DNA of 58,863 bases, taken from assembly GCA_017460515.1 (NCBI GenBank), contig JAFUAY010000026.1, forward strand, positions 1 through 58,863, given 5' to 3'. Below the pieces are notes generated by a model, which saw nothing but the letters and a program-made list of their open reading frames with translations, ran no database searches and was not told the origin of the DNA. The DNA is from Prevotella sp. Its GTDB lineage: Bacteria > Bacteroidota > Bacteroidia > Bacteroidales > Bacteroidaceae. Below, one piece after another: positions 2,864 to 45,137 of this stretch (positions are counted from its first letter, which is position 1; each line of letters begins with the position of its first letter). The position numbers and the translations under genes are program-made.

Positions 2864-3224
2864 CACTAAGGGTGCGCCAAACCGTAGCAGAGGTTAGAGG
2901 AAATCGTAGATTTTGTTAAAAACTCATCTACATTCAACCTTTAGGAACATCCAAGGTCCGGAATTGTTCATGAAGGCCATTTCTGCACATGGGGGTTGCA
3001 TCAGTTTCTCCATCGAATATTTTTATTAATTATTGGTCGGAATGATTACAAATATTTCCAACCGCAAAGATACTTCTTTTTCTCTCAATTGACAAAGCTT
3101 TATCCCACAAAATTAAGTTCTCTTTGCTGAAAAATGGTGTTTTCTCTTTTTTTGATCTGCAAGGACACCATTATGATGTTCCCCGTCAAGACATGAACAT
3201 TATCCGCAAACAAAAACACCATGT

Positions 3225-3259
3225 TTAGGCATCGTAATCAATAAGGTTACGATGCCTAA
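3225..3259. repeat. 13-bp inverted repeat
   Basis: The arms TTAGGCATCGTAA (3225-3237) and TTACGATGCCTAA (3247-3259) are perfectly complementary around a 9-base loop. No T-run follows closely, so a terminator role is doubtful. Confidence 0.75.
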
Positions 3260-3310
3260 CTCTATTGATTGCAATTAACAAATATGGTATATAGCAATGA
3301 TTGTTTTTAG

Positions 3311-3420
3311 TCTGAAAGAGTCAGAGTGAACGTCCGAAACACTCAGAGTGATCGACCGAAACACTCGGAGTGAACGACTGAAACACTCGGAGTGAACGAC
3401 TGAAACACTCGGAGTGAATC
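3311..3420. repeat. 22-bp tandem array, five units (array A)
   Basis: Five head-to-tail units at exact 22-base spacing; the GAGTG element falls at 3324, 3346, 3368, 3390 and 3412. The later units carry the interrupted palindrome CACTCGGAGTG. The first two units are more diverged, and the last three are nearly identical. There are no spacers and 22 is not a multiple of three, so this is neither a CRISPR array nor a coding repeat. Confidence 0.9.
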
Positions 3421-3440
3421 ATCAAAAAACAATGAATTCA

Positions 3441-3518
3441 AAAATGTCCCTCACGTGCCTCAAACCCTTTGTACATCGGCATTTGAGAGGGGTTATGTGA
3501 GTAAGTGAGGGACATTTT
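3441..3518. repeat. 14-bp inverted repeat with inner dyad
   Basis: AAAATGTCCCTCAC (3441-3454) pairs perfectly with GTGAGGGACATTTT (3505-3518). Between the arms, CCTCAAA and TTTGAGAGG can form a second stem, so the whole unit could fold into a long imperfect hairpin. It looks like a small mobile or REP-type intergenic element. Confidence 0.7.
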
Positions 3519-3782
3519 GAAAATTCTTTTATTTTCAGTCAACACAAATTATTTTACGGCAACGGCGAGAAAAAAATATAAAGTTACGAAAAAATGAGAG
3601 CAATGCAAAAGAAAAGTTCATTTTTCTTTCATTTCCGAGTGCTAAGTAAGTTCGGCGAAGCCAATGTTACGAATAAAAGCGAGAATAAGGGTGCAAAAGT
3701 GAAAAATCACCTAAAGGGTGATGGATTCGAAAGTTTTTTTAACTGTTTGTTACTTGGATTGGTGAAATATGGGAGGTAATAA

Positions 3783-8558: not shown

Positions 8559-8585
8559 CTGGTTGCTGCAAGTGGCAACAATCAG
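8559..8585. terminator. Possible bidirectional hairpin between convergent genes
   Basis: CTGGTTGC at 8559-8566 can pair with GCAACAATCAG ending at 8585 with a bulge. It sits directly between the convergent RelA/SpoT-type gene and uvrD, but lacks a strong T-run. Confidence 0.35.
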
Positions 8586-8663
8586 ATTATCTTATATTTC
8601 GCAAAGCAATTAGATTATCCTGTATTTGCAAAGCAATCAGATTATCTTGTATTTTGCAAATTT
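8581..8663. repeat. 27-28-bp repeat, three units, copying the uvrD 3' end
   Basis: The unit with core AGATTATC..GTATTT.GCAAA occurs at 8581-8608, 8609-8635 and from 8636. The third copy contains the uvrD stop codon and its last codons (FAKYKII). The first two are therefore tandem copies of the gene's own 3' end lying just past its stop, with a few substitutions. Confidence 0.75.
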
Positions 8664-18380: not shown

Positions 18381-18475
18381 GTTCGGAAGTTTAAAAGTTC
18401 GGAAGTTTATAAGTTTATAAGTTCGGAAGTTTATAAGTTTAAAAGTCCGGAAGTTTATAAGTTTAGAAGTTCAGG
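18381..18475. repeat. 24-bp tandem repeat upstream of nhaD
   Basis: The motif GTTCGGAAGTTTATAAGTTT recurs from 18381 to 18475; GTTCGG or a one-base variant begins at 18381, 18397, 18421, 18445 and 18469. The spacing is 16 once and then 24 three times. It fills nearly all the gap between nhaD and the upstream kinase gene. Confidence 0.85.
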
Positions 18476-21674: not shown

Positions 21675-22619
21675 TCATACTTTGTCGGGCGTCTCCATGC
21701 GCTTGGCTTCATTCCAGAGGTTGTCCATTTCTGCCAGCGTCATCTCCGTCAGCGGGCGCCCCATGCGGATGCTGTGCTCTTCGATATAGGTGAAACGGCG
21801 TATGAATTTCGCATTCGTCTGTTCCAGCGCATTGTCAGGGTTCAGCTTGTACAGCCGGGCGGCATTGATGACGGAGAAGAGAAAATCGCCCAGTTCTCCT
21901 TCCTGCTGGTGGCGCAGTGCCTGTTTCTGTTCGTCAGTGGGGTGATCGGGCAGCGTTTTCGATAGTTCGGCTTCCAGCTCGCCCAGTTCCTCACGCACTT
22001 TCTTCCATACGTCTTCTTTCTTCTCCCAGTCGAAGCCCACGTTGCGCGCCTTGTCCTGGATGCGGTAGGCTTTGATAACGCTGGGCAGTGCGGCAGGCAC
22101 TCCAGACAGCACTCGCTTGTTGCCGTCTTTCTCCTTCAGCTTGATCTGCTCCCAGTTCTGCAGCACCTGGTCGGCAGTCTTTGCTTGCGAGAATTGAGTG
22201 GTATCGGGAGTATCGACAGTTCCGGATACTTTGGGGGTTCCTGCCTCTTTAGGCTCCTCTCCAAACGGCAGCGGCTTGGGTTCCTCGGCTCCCACCTGAC
22301 TGGGATGATAGACGTGCGGATGGCGGAAGATGAGCTTGTCGGCCTCCTGTCGCAGCACGTCGTACATGTCGAAGGCTCCCTTCTCCTGACCTATCAGTGC
22401 GTAGAAGCAGGTGTGCATAATCACGTCGCCCAACTCCTTCATCGTGTCGTGGTCGTCACCACGGCTCAGGGCGTCACACAGCTCATAGGTCTCTTCAATC
22501 GTATTCGGACGCAGGCTCTCGTTGGTTTGCTTCCTGTCCCAGGGGCATTTCTCGCGCAACTGCTGCAGCACGTCCAGCAGTCGACCGAAAGCCTTCATTT
22601 GTTCCTCTCTTGTATGCAT
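21675..22619 (-). CDS. mazG: MazG nucleoside triphosphate pyrophosphohydrolase
   Basis: Hydrolyses NTPs/dNTPs to monophosphates; MazG proteins clean nucleotide pools and can lower (p)ppGpp levels. Tandem MazG domains are visible: EETYELCDAL near residue 40, and GELGDFLFSVINAARL near 240, with the helix start WPWD-like CPWDRKQTNESL at about 20. The 314 residues exceed the usual ~260 because a Pro/Thr-rich linker of about 45 residues (EEPKPLPFGEEPKEAG onward) separates the domains. It is the first gene of a four-gene operon with a clear promoter. Confidence 0.93.
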   Translation of the reverse strand: MHTREEQMKAFGRLLDVLQQLREKCPWDRKQTNESLRPNTIEETYELCDALSRGDDHDTMKELGDVIMHTCFYALIGQEKGAFDMYDVLRQEADKLIFRHPHVYHPSQVGAEEPKPLPFGEEPKEAGTPKVSGTVDTPDTTQFSQAKTADQVLQNWEQIKLKEKDGNKRVLSGVPAALPSVIKAYRIQDKARNVGFDWEKKEDVWKKVREELGELEAELSKTLPDHPTDEQKQALRHQQEGELGDFLFSVINAARLYKLNPDNALEQTNAKFIRRFTYIEEHSIRMGRPLTEMTLAEMDNLWNEAKRMETPDKV

Positions 22620-22636
22620 GATTAGTTATTTTTATG

Positions 22637-22668
22637 CAAAGGTAAACAATAATATCGACACTGCCAAA
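22637..22668 (-). promoter_or_regulatory. Promoter of the mazG operon
   Basis: The minus strand reads TTTG (22668-22665), a 20-base spacer, then TACCTTTG (22644-22637), 17 bases before the mazG start codon. This is a full Bacteroidetes-type promoter match. Confidence 0.8.
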
Positions 22669-22770
22669 TGTTTGTTGATTTTATTTTAATTCAACTTTCT
22701 GAAATTAATTTGATAAAGGAAAAAAACAATAAAAAACTGGTTAGACCATACGCAGAGGATACTGTTTCAC

Positions 22771-22880
22771 GTAAACACCATGTTTTCACCCCGTAAACAC
22801 CATGTTTTCACCCCGTAAACACCATGTTCCTGTCCTGTAAACACCATGTTTCTGTCCTGTAAACACTATGTTTCCCATTA
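22771..22880. repeat. 22-bp tandem array, five units (array B)
   Basis: Units start at 22771, 22793, 22815, 22837 and 22859, exactly 22 bases apart. Each has the core AAACACCATGTTT or a close variant, an interrupted palindrome (AAACA..TGTTT). The bases between cores vary (TCACCCC or CTGTCCT). The same 13-base core occurs once at 3214-3226. Confidence 0.92.
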
Positions 22881-23022
22881 TTCGTTTGATTAGTGCAATT
22901 CGTGTTCGTTAATAAATGAAGTCCGAACAGGCAGTGCTCGCCTTTGAGGTCTGCCGGTAGCAAATTCTTCATTTTTCACTCTTCACTTGTCACTTCAAAA
23001 TTGGGGGGTTCTTGGCGCCTCA

Positions 23023-23068
23023 CCCCTCATATCAATGTCCCCCTTATAGGGGGACTGATATTGAGGGG
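23023..23068. repeat. REP-like GC-rich hairpin
   Basis: CCCCTCATATCAATGTCCCC (from 23023) faces GGGGACTGATATTGAGGGG (ending 23068) with few mismatches and a tiny loop; flanking GGCGCCTC and GAGGCACC extend the stem. It is unlike its AT-rich surroundings and looks like a mobile palindromic unit. Confidence 0.7.
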
Positions 23069-23160
23069 ATAGAGGCACCCTAGAAGGGGGGCATAAAAAG
23101 CGAATCCTTATTATTCGTGATATTCATGTGATTCGTGTTCGGCTTATGAATCATTCGAAC

Positions 23161-23220
23161 CACTGAGATACTGTCAGCAAACCACTGAAATACTGTCAGT
23201 AAACCACTGAGATAAATTTT
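23161..23220. repeat. 22-bp tandem array, three units (array C)
   Basis: CACTGA begins at 23161, 23183 and 23205, exactly 22 bases apart. The full units carry the interrupted palindrome ACTGA..TCAG(T). The third unit is truncated and runs straight into the sigma-54-type promoter of clpC. Confidence 0.82.
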
Positions 23221-23236
23221 TGGCACGACTTTTGCA
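23221..23236 (+). promoter_or_regulatory. Sigma-54-type promoter upstream of clpC
   Basis: TGGCACGACTTTTGCA matches the -24/-12 consensus TGGCACG-N4-TTGCW at every defined base, with correct spacing between the GG and GC pairs. It lies 82 bases before the clpC start. No exact TAnnTTTG element replaces it; a longer TAAATTTTTG sits just in front. Confidence 0.6.
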
Positions 23237-23318
23237 CAATTTAAATTGCATGATTATCGTTAAATAAGAACAAGAAAAGGAAAAAACGCCCTCCGACGGG
23301 CAGAACGAGATAGACAGA

Positions 23319-25877
23319 ATGACAAGTCAGTTTTCACATAAAGTATCAGAAATACTCGCCTACAGCCGCGAAGAAGCAGCGCGCCTGGCCAGTTCGTCAG
23401 TAGGTCCTGAACACCTGCTGCTGGGCATGATGCGCATGAAGGAAGGACCCGTCATCGACGTGTTCCACCGCCTCCGCCTGAACCTGCAGTCGGTAAAGAC
23501 TGAACTGGAGACAAAGGTGAGGCGCGACGAACTGGGAATGCCCATCCACACACAGGATCTGGTGCTCAACGAGCGGGCGTCAAACATCCTGAAGCTGGCG
23601 GTGCTGGAAGCCCGTATACAACACCTCACGAAAGTAGACGAACAACACCTGCTGCTGGCTATCCTGCACGACCAGACGGCCAACGGCGCAAAACAAATAT
23701 TGGAATTTCACAACATGAACTACGAAGACGTACTGAGCCTGATGCGCTCACAACAATCGCAAAACAGCATTAAGAACGACATAGGACTGCCTGAGGACGA
23801 AGACGACGAGGATTTCGAGACCGCAGGCGCTCTCAGCGGACGCAACTCTACCAATGGCAGCAGCACCCAGACGGCACAGAAGAAAGAATCTGACACCCCC
23901 GTGCTCGACAATTTCTCGACCGACCTCACCGTAGCTGCCGCAGAAGGTAAGCTGGATCCTGTGGTGGGGCGTGAGCGTGAGATGCAGCGCGTTATTGAGA
24001 TACTGGGCCGTCGGAAGAAGAACAACCCTATCCTGATAGGCGAACCTGGCGTGGGCAAGAGTGCCATCGTAGAAGGATTGGCACAACTCATCGCACAGCA
24101 CAAGACGTCGCCGATGTTCTTCAACAAACGACTGGTCAGCCTCGATATGACTGCCATTGTGGCAGGCACGAAGTATCGCGGACAGTTCGAGGAGCGTATA
24201 CGCGCCCTGCTCAAAGAAATTGAAAACGATCCCAATATCATTGTGTTCATCGATGAGATACATACACTCATCGGAGCCGGTTCTTCGCCTGGAACGATGG
24301 ACGCTGCCAACATCATGAAACCTGCATTGGCACGAGGCACCATACAGTGTATCGGAGCTACCACACTCGACGAATATCGCAACTCTATCGAGAAAGACGG
24401 GGCATTGGAGCGCCGCTTCCAGAAGGTAGTCGTTGAGCCTACCACACGTGATGAAACGCTGCAGATTCTGCGCAATATTAAGGACCGCTACGAACATCAC
24501 CACCACGTTGACTATACTGACGAGGCACTGGAGGCGTGTGTCAAATTGACAGAACGATATGTCACTGACAGAGCCTTCCCTGACAAAGCCATCGATGCAA
24601 TGGATGAGGCTGGTTCGCGCATACATCTTTCACACGCCCAGATTCCGCCCATCATCCAGGAAAAGGAGAAGGAACTGGCTCGCGTACTGGAGAAGAAAAA
24701 GTTGGCCGTGCAAAACCAGAACTTCGAGTTGGCTGCCAGTTATCGCGACAAACAGACGGAGCTGGAAGCTAACCTCGCTATGATGAGAAACGATTGGACA
24801 AACGGTTCAATGGAAGACCGTCAACAGGTTGATGCTGAGACGATTGCAAACGTTGTCTCAATGATGACTGGAGTGCCCGTGCAGAAGATGGCCGACGAGG
24901 AAGGCATCCGCCTGAAGGGAATGGCTACCTCACTGAAAGCTGCCGTCATCGCTCAGGATAAAGCTATCGACAAGATGGTGAAAGCCATCCAGCGTAACCG
25001 TGTGGGCTTGAAGGACCCCAACCATCCCATCGGCGTGTTTATGTTCCTGGGGCCTACAGGTGTGGGAAAGACTTATCTAGCCAAGAAGCTCGCTGAGTTC
25101 ATGTTTGGCTCGGCCGACTCGTTAATCCGTATCGACATGAGCGAATATACAGAATCATTCAATGTCTCACGCCTGATTGGTGCGCCTCCAGGATACGTGG
25201 GTTATGAGGAAGGCGGACAGCTCACTGAACGGGTTCGTCGCCGTCCCTATTCCATCGTGCTGCTCGACGAGATTGAGAAAGCCCACGGCAACGTGTTCAA
25301 CCTGTTGCTGCAGGTGCTCGACGAGGGAAGGCTAACTGACGGCAACGGACGGTTCGTCGACTTCCGTAATACGGTGATTATCATGACCTCGAACGCAGGT
25401 ACACGACAGCTGAAGGACTTTGGACGTGGTGTGGGATTTACGGCAGGAGCACTCAGTACGAATATGAATGAGAAGGACAAGGAACACGCTCGCAGCATCG
25501 TACAGAAAGCACTCTCCAAGCAGTTCTCGCCTGAATTCCTTAACCGCTTGGATGAAATCATTACCTTCGACCAGCTGGACCTCACTGCCATCAAGCAAAT
25601 TGTCGACATCGAACTGCGTGCACTCTGGAAACGCATTGATGATATGGGCTATAAAGTTGAACTTACCGACGATGCCAAGCAGTTCGTGGCCGAACGCGGC
25701 TATGACGTGCAATTCGGTGCTCGACCCTTGAAACGCGCCATCCAGAACTATATCGAGGATGGTGTGGCAGAGATGATTATCAACGACGATCTGCCATTGG
25801 GTGCTACCATTCGCATCTCCAAGGCAGACGACAAAGAAGAGTTAAAGTTCGAAAAATGTTTGGAAGTTAACGAATAA
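23319..25877 (+). CDS. clpC: ClpC-type AAA+ unfoldase
   Basis: The ATPase partner of ClpP, unfolding damaged or tagged proteins. The 852 residues have the standard order: two Clp_N repeats (1-150, SSVGPEHLLLGMMR), a linker, AAA1 with Walker A GEPGVGKSA near 241, a UVR-type coiled motif near 445-480 (QNQNFELAASYRDKQ), which marks ClpC rather than ClpA or ClpB, and AAA2 with GPTGVGKTY near 578. The ClpP-docking loop region follows. It is preceded by arrays of 22-bp repeats and a sigma-54-like promoter, suggesting regulation apart from the housekeeping sigma factor. It is followed by rpoD with its own promoter. Confidence 0.96.
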   Translation: MTSQFSHKVSEILAYSREEAARLASSSVGPEHLLLGMMRMKEGPVIDVFHRLRLNLQSVKTELETKVRRDELGMPIHTQDLVLNERASNILKLAVLEARIQHLTKVDEQHLLLAILHDQTANGAKQILEFHNMNYEDVLSLMRSQQSQNSIKNDIGLPEDEDDEDFETAGALSGRNSTNGSSTQTAQKKESDTPVLDNFSTDLTVAAAEGKLDPVVGREREMQRVIEILGRRKKNNPILIGEPGVGKSAIVEGLAQLIAQHKTSPMFFNKRLVSLDMTAIVAGTKYRGQFEERIRALLKEIENDPNIIVFIDEIHTLIGAGSSPGTMDAANIMKPALARGTIQCIGATTLDEYRNSIEKDGALERRFQKVVVEPTTRDETLQILRNIKDRYEHHHHVDYTDEALEACVKLTERYVTDRAFPDKAIDAMDEAGSRIHLSHAQIPPIIQEKEKELARVLEKKKLAVQNQNFELAASYRDKQTELEANLAMMRNDWTNGSMEDRQQVDAETIANVVSMMTGVPVQKMADEEGIRLKGMATSLKAAVIAQDKAIDKMVKAIQRNRVGLKDPNHPIGVFMFLGPTGVGKTYLAKKLAEFMFGSADSLIRIDMSEYTESFNVSRLIGAPPGYVGYEEGGQLTERVRRRPYSIVLLDEIEKAHGNVFNLLLQVLDEGRLTDGNGRFVDFRNTVIIMTSNAGTRQLKDFGRGVGFTAGALSTNMNEKDKEHARSIVQKALSKQFSPEFLNRLDEIITFDQLDLTAIKQIVDIELRALWKRIDDMGYKVELTDDAKQFVAERGYDVQFGARPLKRAIQNYIEDGVAEMIINDDLPLGATIRISKADDKEELKFEKCLEVNE

Positions 25878-44077: not shown

Positions 44078-44986
44078 TTGGAAAAGACGCTGATAGTCGT
44101 CACAGGCCCAACTGCAGTTGGAAAGACAGAGCTCTGTCTTGATATTGCAAAATACTTCAACATCCCTATCATCAACGCTGATTCAAGGCAGATTTATAAG
44201 GAGTTGAAAATAGGAACGGCCGCACCTACCGAAGAACAAATGCGGCAGGTGCGGCATTTCTTTGTAGGTACTTTGAGCATTGCTGATTACTATAGTGCTT
44301 CCATGTATGAAGAGCAGACAATGTCACTTCTTCATGAGCTGTTCCAGACGAGCAACATCGCTTTGATGTGTGGTGGCAGCATGATGTATATCGATGCAGT
44401 ATGCAACGGCATAGATGATATCCCTACGGTAAGTGACGAAATACGTAACGAATTGAAAAAGCGATTGGCTAATGAGGGGCTTGAGGAATTATGCAAGTTA
44501 CTGAAGACGCTTGATCCTGAACATTACGAAATTGTAGATCGTCAGAATCCAAGACGTGTGGTTCATGCACTTGAAATCTGTCTGATGACGGGAAAGACCT
44601 ATACATCGTTCCGTACGAACGAGAAGAAAGAGCGTCCATTTCAGATTATCAAGATTGCCATCAATCGGAATCGCGAAGAATTGTATGAGCGTATCAACCA
44701 TCGAGTAGATCAGATGATGGAAGACGGACTGCTTGAAGAGGCGCAACGCCTGTATAACCAGCGGAACTTGAATGCGCTTAACACCGTAGGTTATAAAGAG
44801 ATGTTTGCCTATTTTGACGGAACATGGTCGCTTGAAGAAGCTATCGAACGCCTAAAAGGAAATACTCGCAGATATGCTCGCAAGCAGCTCACGTGGTTTA
44901 AGAAAGATCCCTCAGTAAAATGGTTCTCGCCAGATGATAAAGAAGAAATCATTAAATATATTAGAGAAAGGTGTATTCTCAAGTAG
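44078..44986 (+). CDS. miaA: tRNA dimethylallyltransferase
   Basis: Adds the dimethylallyl group to A37 of tRNAs reading codons that begin with U. The 302 residues have Walker [13 protein letters not shown] (6-17), the [14 protein letters not shown] loop, the FVGTL segment and the [11 protein letters not shown]-terminal motif. The start must be the TTG at 44078, since no ATG precedes the P-loop in frame. It is cotranscribed with lpxA (8-base gap). Its stop codon falls at the first unit of array D. Confidence 0.95.
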
Positions 44987-45115
44987 AAAACGATGTTCCC
45001 CCTAAAGGAAAACGATGTTTTCTCATTGGGAAAACGATGTTTTCTCACTGAGAAAACAAAATATTCTCAATATAGAAAACGATGTTTTCTCCCTGTAGGA
45101 AACGGTAGTTTCTCA
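44986..45115. repeat. 22-bp tandem array, six units (array D)
   Basis: Units with core GAAAACGATGTTTTC, an interrupted palindrome, begin at 44986, 45008, 45030 and 45052 (22-base spacing), then two more at 23-base steps. The fourth and sixth units are diverged. The array starts in the stop codon of miaA and ends 22 bases before the PBP gene. Confidence 0.9.
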
Positions 45116-45137
45116 TATAACAACAAACTTCAAGACT

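Follow-up and report, generated by a model that had tools for sequence, protein, structure and literature searches.

Dispersed 22-bp tandem arrays in the spacers of a Prevotella genome probably represent a species-specific minisatellite superfamily

Bacterial minisatellites, or VNTRs, are built from short tandem units that lie in spacers and are homogenized locally. In eukaryotes, satellite DNA evolves by turnover of a library, such that the sequence is species-specific and the unit length is fixed, and the arrays are graded and composite. The intergenic arrays described here can be set against both of these systems. The minisatellite concept does not include a fixed period that holds across unrelated sequences and species, as is seen here, and eukaryotic satellites occupy long blocks, whereas each of the present arrays comprises a few units and the arrays are scattered among the spacers. 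They constitute a genuine minisatellite variant that has a fixed step and is concentrated in one bacterial family.

The closest described system is BrickBuilt of P. gingivalis, in which 23-nt tandem units reside within a MITE provided with a leader, a tail, and IS5-type ends. Its 19 copies are intergenic, the number of repeats varies among strains, and several of the copies adjoin secretion-system genes (PMC4596501, in the portions available). As far as those portions go, the likeness lies in intergenic, dispersed, and species-restricted arrays, in imperfect units of approximately two helical turns, and in predicted stem-loops. The BrickBuilt unit is 23 nt in length, however, whereas arrays A to D of the present study and the peak of our genome sample are at 22 bp, no shared leader or tail was found here, and there are several diverged sub-families per genome and many species that carry such arrays. 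The same portions of PMC4596501 mention tandem direct repeats of 22, 23, and 41 nt in P. gingivalis W83, credited to an earlier genome paper; these belong to the same unit-length class and the same order, and are known from a mention without positions. The available portions of another report on P. gingivalis (PMC5771137) and of one on lake genomes (PMC9426551) contain nothing on a 22-bp class. Within the literature covered, from which subscription journals were mostly absent, BrickBuilt alone resembles these arrays, and no description of them was found.

The stretch of DNA under study, referred to here as the window, is a contig of 58,863 bp (C17) from a 2.27-Mb draft of a gut Prevotella, which consists of 50 contigs and is 65% complete. 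Its 22-bp arrays and the elements that accompany them are listed below.

3214-3281, no strand assigned: three-unit chain preceding array A, with diverged 22-bp units, AAACACCATGTTT, then in register AATCAATA.. and CTATTGATT..
3312-3418, no strand assigned: array A, 22 bp x 4.9, unit CTGAAACACTCGGAGTGAACGA (Tandem Repeats Finder, TRF)
3446-3513, + strand: hairpin with the loop core CCTTTGTACATCGGCATTT at 3466-3484, a core also written CCTTTGTNNATCGGC; the stem differs among copies (L158-L165)
22770-22875, no strand assigned: array B, 22 bp x 4.8, unit CGTAAACACCATGTTTCCACCC (TRF)
22770-22913, no strand assigned: array B with ~38 bp of downstream flank; a copy lies on contig C23 (92% identity in a 146-column alignment to L012)
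23158-23214, no strand assigned: array C, 22 bp x 2.6, unit AACCACTGAGATACTGTCAGCA (TRF)
44976-45119, no strand assigned: array D, 22 bp (also scored at 44-45), unit GAAAACGATGTTTTCTCATTGA (TRF)

All four of the 22-bp arrays claimed in the initial annotation were recovered by TRF where it had placed them, and they are visible in the raw sequence. Its two exclusions hold as well: the 22-bp units are contiguous, with no unique spacers between them as in CRISPR, and arrays A to D are intergenic rather than coding. Array A and arrays B/C lie in divergent spacers. Array D, for which TRF also reports 22 bp x 3.8 at 45008-45091, sits between miaA and a gene of the PBP1A family, and overlaps the miaA open reading frame by its final 11 bp. 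Two further strong arrays of other periods, absent from the initial annotation, were found by TRF at 8579-8660 and 18387-18472. That at 8579-8660 has a period of 27-28 bp and lies partly over the 3' end of a gene for a PcrA/UvrD-like helicase. The second is intergenic, between genes for an NhaD-like antiporter and a histidine kinase, and its 24-bp period arises from an 8-bp step (GAAGTTTA). Sequence related to ATTCGTG..ATTCGTGTTCG directly follows array B (22876-22914) and directly precedes array C (23110-23157); there are only two occurrences of ATTCGTGTTCG in the sample of this genome. No tRNA was detected in the window.

The frequency of period 22 was examined in a sample composed of 40 genome stretches plus the window, amounting to 733,380 bp or 32% of the draft, with genes called by a simple ORF rule and arrays counted at a score of at least 60. 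Of 44 intergenic arrays, 23 have a period of 22 bp and three more a period of 44-45 bp, versus one of 26 coding arrays at 22 bp. The lag spectrum of self-matches in the spacers contains 21 segments at lag 22 and 15 at lag 44, with four or fewer at any other lag from 8 to 60, and shuffled spacers gave no segments at each of the five lags tried. The coding lag spectrum of this full sample has a flat floor that probably stems from masked N runs, which were excluded in the repeat described next. Note that eight of the 40 stretches contain the previously located array B motif, and as a control for bias the analysis was repeated on the other 32 (514,517 bp). In these motif-free stretches nine of 23 intergenic arrays are at period 22 and one is at 44, the next most common period being 21 (n = 3), and one of 16 coding arrays is at period 22. 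The corresponding lag spectrum shows seven segments at lag 22, six at lag 44, and three or fewer elsewhere. In this genome scan, which the initial annotation had proposed, the periods are not spread evenly over 10-40 bp; 22 bp is the peak.

For comparison, 80 loci around the neighboring gene mazG were collected from related genomes. Their 85 intergenic arrays include 23 at period 22, four at 44, 12 at 21 (some of which are 7-bp repeats), and five at 23, and two of 57 coding arrays are at period 22. The value of 22 is the peak at these loci too, but it is less sharp than in the genome of the window. Arrays of 22 or 44 bp number five in 200 kb of P. communis, one in 200 kb of B. fragilis, six in 80 kb of X. 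brevis, and two in 160 kb, two in 56 kb, and six in 60 kb of three rumen drafts. A P. clara locus contains two short ones, 40 kb of Paraprevotella xylaniphila contains none, and one was present in the sole stretch sampled from another genus of the same family. Beyond the family, none was found in 19 stretches that represent other families of Bacteroidales (15 genomes) or in eight stretches from other classes, and one was found in 12 stretches of other Bacteroidia; a draft labeled just Bacteroidales (L125) has two. Such arrays are concentrated in the family of Prevotella and Bacteroides and are rare beyond it. A shared 22-bp geometry with differing sequence, over-represented in intergenic DNA, is thus a feature of both this genome and its relatives, and the phenomenon is confirmed as genuine and as larger than had been stated. 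No second strain of the species turned up among the collections searched.

Prevotella relatives also carry another type of repeat in their spacers, distinct from the 22-bp arrays and built on 7-bp steps (periods of 7, 14, 21, and 28 bp, for example CTCTCAA; L060, L065, L084, and L088). In the draft of another relative (G206), contigs C93 and C108 start in array-family sequence, which suggests that arrays may break assemblies.

The four arrays had been regarded as sharing a design and as "not copies of one element". The latter statement is mostly wrong, for the units share a weak consensus and are graded, and array B, array D, and the block beside array A recur elsewhere as 22-bp arrays, array C being without a copy. 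The core of array B, AAACACCATGTTT, occurs 33 times in the genome, versus no occurrence of the reversed-pattern control. A tandem pair of AAACACCATGTTT was encountered in one of 200 genomes of the genus, namely its own; the exact tandem motif is absent from viral contigs, and BLAST searches with array B against phages and plasmids gave no match. The block preceding array A (3214-3281) has ungapped matches of 39-68 bp, at 77-87% identity, to nine distinct other loci among those compared. Array A itself has three weak matches elsewhere in the genome, the best of which is on contig C31 (E = 1.1e-5); two of these three loci have 22-bp arrays, one within an ORF call. Diverged copies of array D are located on contigs C21, C36, C37, C44, and C45, with 22-bp arrays at all five, and for array C no second copy was found in the genome at E ≤ 0.1.

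A circular-motif search on 20 non-redundant units of this genome yielded a consensus with a log-likelihood of 107.6, versus 60.0 ± 2.6 for shuffles. With all 30 units the value is 176, versus 90 ± 12 (maximum 119) for spacer 22-mers, a test in which kin were unfiltered and the nulls were fitted with fewer starts than the real fit; the 20-unit set is the filtered one. When close kin are left out of the fit, 19 of the 30 units conform at p < 0.05, and the values for the arrays of the window are 0.007 (A), 0.047 (B), 0.10 (D), and 0.16 (C). Gradation is evident when L150, L161, L165, and L034 are written in 22-letter rows, whereby unit types shift by way of mixed units and the step is kept. Sixteen loci with the array B motif were displayed and 12 were set in rows; the remaining four (L002, L009, L012, and L019) run on into further units of the same or another type. 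At nine of the 12, the following unit, exactly 22 bp on, starts with AATCAATA or AACTCTAT after a 9-bp linker that varies, and at two more it starts with AAACAATA or AAACTATA. A segment of 391 bp common to two loci (92.6% identity) spans one array and a hairpin and extends into a second array. Simple ORF calls cover two of the 30 motif loci and a few of the related arrays; otherwise the sites are intergenic and dispersed. From these comparisons of sequence, we see the array units of one genome as members of what appears to be a single diverged superfamily, with a faint core common across species. The lack of a copy of array C and its poor fit to the consensus, together with the p value for array D, weigh against this one-superfamily reading.

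Between species the units change. The consensus from this genome fits six of 49 units from other species at p ≤ 0.05, and five of 100 random spacer 22-mers. Relatives have internal consensuses of their own, with log-likelihoods of 73.7 versus 51.3 ± 3.9 in G208, 49.9 versus 37.8 ± 1.5 in G207, and 57.3 versus 45.7 ± 3.1 in G205; in G201 and G206 the internal consensus is not above the null maximum. When 45 non-redundant units from other species are pooled, some common consensus is retained (91.3 versus 68.5 ± 4.5 for shuffles), and turnover is therefore not total. We attribute this pooled signal to AAAC-rich cores. AAAC is present in 32 of 65 non-redundant units versus 18.8 in spacer 22-mers, and CAAAC, a motif chosen after a scan, in 14 of 65 versus 3.7. 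Pairs of units from different species with at least 15 of 22 matches number 11 of 2578, versus one in shuffles, and the pair formed by L052 and G208 has 18. Judged by these fits, the consensus of this genome hardly extends to other species, but the period does.

At 21675-25877 of the window, mazG is divergent to a gene for a clpB/clpC-like ATPase. Among the 80 related mazG loci, valS occupies the clpB/clpC-like position in 28, and a clpC relative is within reach upstream of mazG in one (L089). A 22-bp array is present in two of these 28 comparable mazG-valS spacers (L095 and L097), with units unrelated to each other; of the 26 without one, most are 111-475 bp in length and the two of B. fragilis are 1183 bp. 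The notion that arrays occupy the same spacer in many species was rejected on the basis of these two in 28, the other 52 of the 80 loci not being comparable. At L097, ~147 bp including the array are absent from L085 and L096, the flanks of which are 87-88% identical. This insert has no second copy in its own genome, and thus not every array stems from a resident family. The L095 array region, on the other hand, has 16 further matches in its own genome, several on the same contigs. Of 66 arrays that could be placed, 35 lie between codirectional, 16 between convergent, and 15 between divergent genes, and the background of 502 spacers is distributed as 52, 16, and 32%, respectively. The arrays ignore the orientation of the flanking genes and do not favor divergent spacers. 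Their dispersal was not linked to any transposase or terminal repeat. A promoter role was considered and rejected, given that TTTG/CAAA is not above the spacer background (28 of 65 units versus 24.5). We think that most of the arrays have no gene-specific regulatory role.

According to the initial annotation, every unit contains an interrupted dyad. Overall, dyads are commoner than in shuffled units, but the enrichment is not specific to 22-bp arrays, and the dyad of array C is at chance. Against shuffled units the p values are 0.03 for array B, 0.055 for array A, and 0.40 for array C, and in the unit of array D 16 of the 22 positions are symmetric. Taken over the whole unit, symmetric positions number 12.1 of 22 on average versus 11.0 (s.d. 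0.16) in shuffles, with 13 of 79 units displaying at least 16 of them versus 1.5 in shuffles; with kin removed the latter count is nine of 65 versus 2.7 (maximum 8) in spacer 22-mers. Arrays of other periods (n = 29) have a mean dyad excess over shuffles that is just as large (0.05). Local dyads at p ≤ 0.05 are found in 11 of 46 units of period 22, in four of 20 of period 21 or 23, and in none of the 25 units with any other period. There are few compensatory double changes (11 doubles versus five expected, with six of them complementary), and no 11-bp sub-period was detected in the units.

Array D (44986-45115) folds well on both strands, with z-scores against shuffles of -5.1 and -4.5. For array B the values are -3.4 on one strand and -0.3 on the + strand, for array C a weak -2.1 on one strand and -0.9 on the + strand, and for array A a moderate -2.6 and -2.2. 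The hairpin region at 3430-3530 has a z-score of -5.8. Its loop core has nine matches in the genome with three or fewer mismatches, versus one for the control, and seven of the nine adjoin 22-bp arrays. In spacers the core was counted five times in the sample of this genome and once at most in each other set; the hairpin totals from that cross-set survey arise from masked N runs. The conserved loop and variable stem had prompted the idea of a rolling-circle origin with iterons and a stem-loop, which was dropped because matches to the loop core hardly extend beyond this genome and the search for a Y1 transposase was negative. The Y1 transposase (PF01797) that moves REP/BIME elements in RAYT systems has no match in the 65% complete draft and is present in five of 14 control genomes. 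Rfam searches produced nothing at gathering score in the window, and at the array and hairpin loci microRNA matches alone, all below gathering scores.

In-register slippage would keep the period for free, yet long drift should let it wander by way of indels. In the flanks of the arrays, identity at lag 22 is 0.33-0.365 out to 110 bp, whereas lags 21 and 23 lie at 0.250-0.275, near the 0.255-0.260 of other lags; the raised value is not by itself proof of one shared phase because the neighboring array gives it too. The dispersed three-unit block has accumulated ~114 substitutions from its consensus over 10 loci with one indel judged clear (L029), versus ~7 expected from the 17 gaps per 286 mismatches in the spacers of six close species pairs. 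This indel count is soft, since 34 of the 66 pairs (12 loci) gain in score from gaps once the gap costs are made lenient; all 12 pairs listed involve L029, L027, or L017. Inside the 22-bp arrays indels are not rare, at 0.138 per mismatch by the TRF count. It is likely that a length constraint helps to keep the 22-bp period, and the length of the arrays is probably held by the slippage register plus some further constraint.

On the basis of the evidence presented here, we assign a probability of approximately two-thirds to the reading that arrays A to D, of which C is the least sure, belong to a dispersed, species-specific 22-bp minisatellite superfamily that is akin to but distinct from BrickBuilt. 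The observations behind it are the period peak, the weak shared consensus, the dispersed copies, the graded arrays, the sporadic presence at one spacer, and the concentration in one family. Slippage or unequal exchange would homogenize each array locally, copying of array segments would move arrays into new spacers, and point mutation would let the units drift until the loci seem unrelated. Each Prevotella-type species would in this manner bear its own version, with the sequence turning over and the 22-bp step staying. The period may be kept in part by a constraint on length, set either by two helical turns under a bound protein or by copying with a 22-bp ruler.

The arrays could instead be architectural sites, where a lineage-specific protein coats or bends the spacer DNA once per two helical turns and reads shape and spacing over sequence. 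Such sites would be in keeping with the sharp peak at 22 in this genome, the flank identity raised at lag 22 but not at 21 and 23, the single clear indel in the three-unit block where ~7 were predicted, the whole-unit dyad symmetry above shuffles, and CAAAC in 14 of 65 units versus 3.7. We nevertheless regard them as unlikely: no protein has been identified, arrays of other periods have an equal dyad excess, an 11-bp sub-period is lacking, and the share of indels within arrays is not low by TRF, the count for the block being soft. The view put forward in the initial annotation, namely that these are operator arrays unrelated to one another, each having a dyad of its own, which serve a family of dimeric regulators, can call upon the near-perfect dyads of 19-22 bp in some units of other species (L052 and L061, for example) and upon the 13 of 79 units in which 16 or more of the 22 positions are symmetric. 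Divergent spacers are not preferred, however, the units of one genome are kin, and a significant local dyad is present in 11 of 46 units only, that of array C being at chance. With the dyad excess equal in other periods and compensatory changes few, a dimeric-binder family receives no direct support, and operator arrays are improbable.

If, alternatively, the arrays were situated inside a BrickBuilt-like MITE, a non-autonomous transposon mobilized by an IS5-family transposase, then the insertion-like difference at L097 and the ~38 bp of flank shared by array B and its copy would be accounted for. The elements described in the available portions of PMC4596501 are also from Bacteroidales, and are dispersed, intergenic, dyad-bearing, and composed of 22-23 nt tandem units. 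At the ends of the present arrays, however, no common leader or tail was seen, either in the flanks of 16 AAACACCATGTTT loci or by spacer BLAST, the sole shared flank in that check being the ~38 bp of array B and its C23 copy. The IS5-type terminal inverted repeat (GAGACCTTTGCA) is not above chance in the window, with four matches at two mismatches versus 5.8 expected and none at the arrays, and the 391-bp shared segment begins at the edge of one array and stops within another; a transposon of this type has, in our estimation, a low probability. Once transcribed, the arrays might also fold into long hairpins with a role in termination or in mRNA protection, and array D does fold on both strands, arrays B and C on one, and array A moderately. 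Yet the + strand values for arrays B and C are only -0.3 and -0.9, RNA hairpins would have no need of a fixed period, the window contains nothing that attains the gathering score of an Rfam family, and the arrays occur in every spacer orientation, all of which renders an RNA element highly improbable.

A more tentative proposal, possible but doubtful at present, is that Prevotella and Bacteroides possess a 22-bp ruler, in the form of a protein or a copying process by which intergenic DNA of 22-bp periodicity is built and kept whatever its sequence. Each species might then maintain its own satellite-like library at a single unvarying length, and this bacterial counterpart to the evolution of satellite DNA is put forward just as tentatively. 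Dyads such as those described here should, as a caution, not be read as operators, and the arrays may account for contigs that start in such sequence. A length that stays fixed while the sequence is rewritten between species would imply a constraint on spacing, and hence a protein or enzyme that can be found, and satellite-style evolution would become testable in a bacterium.
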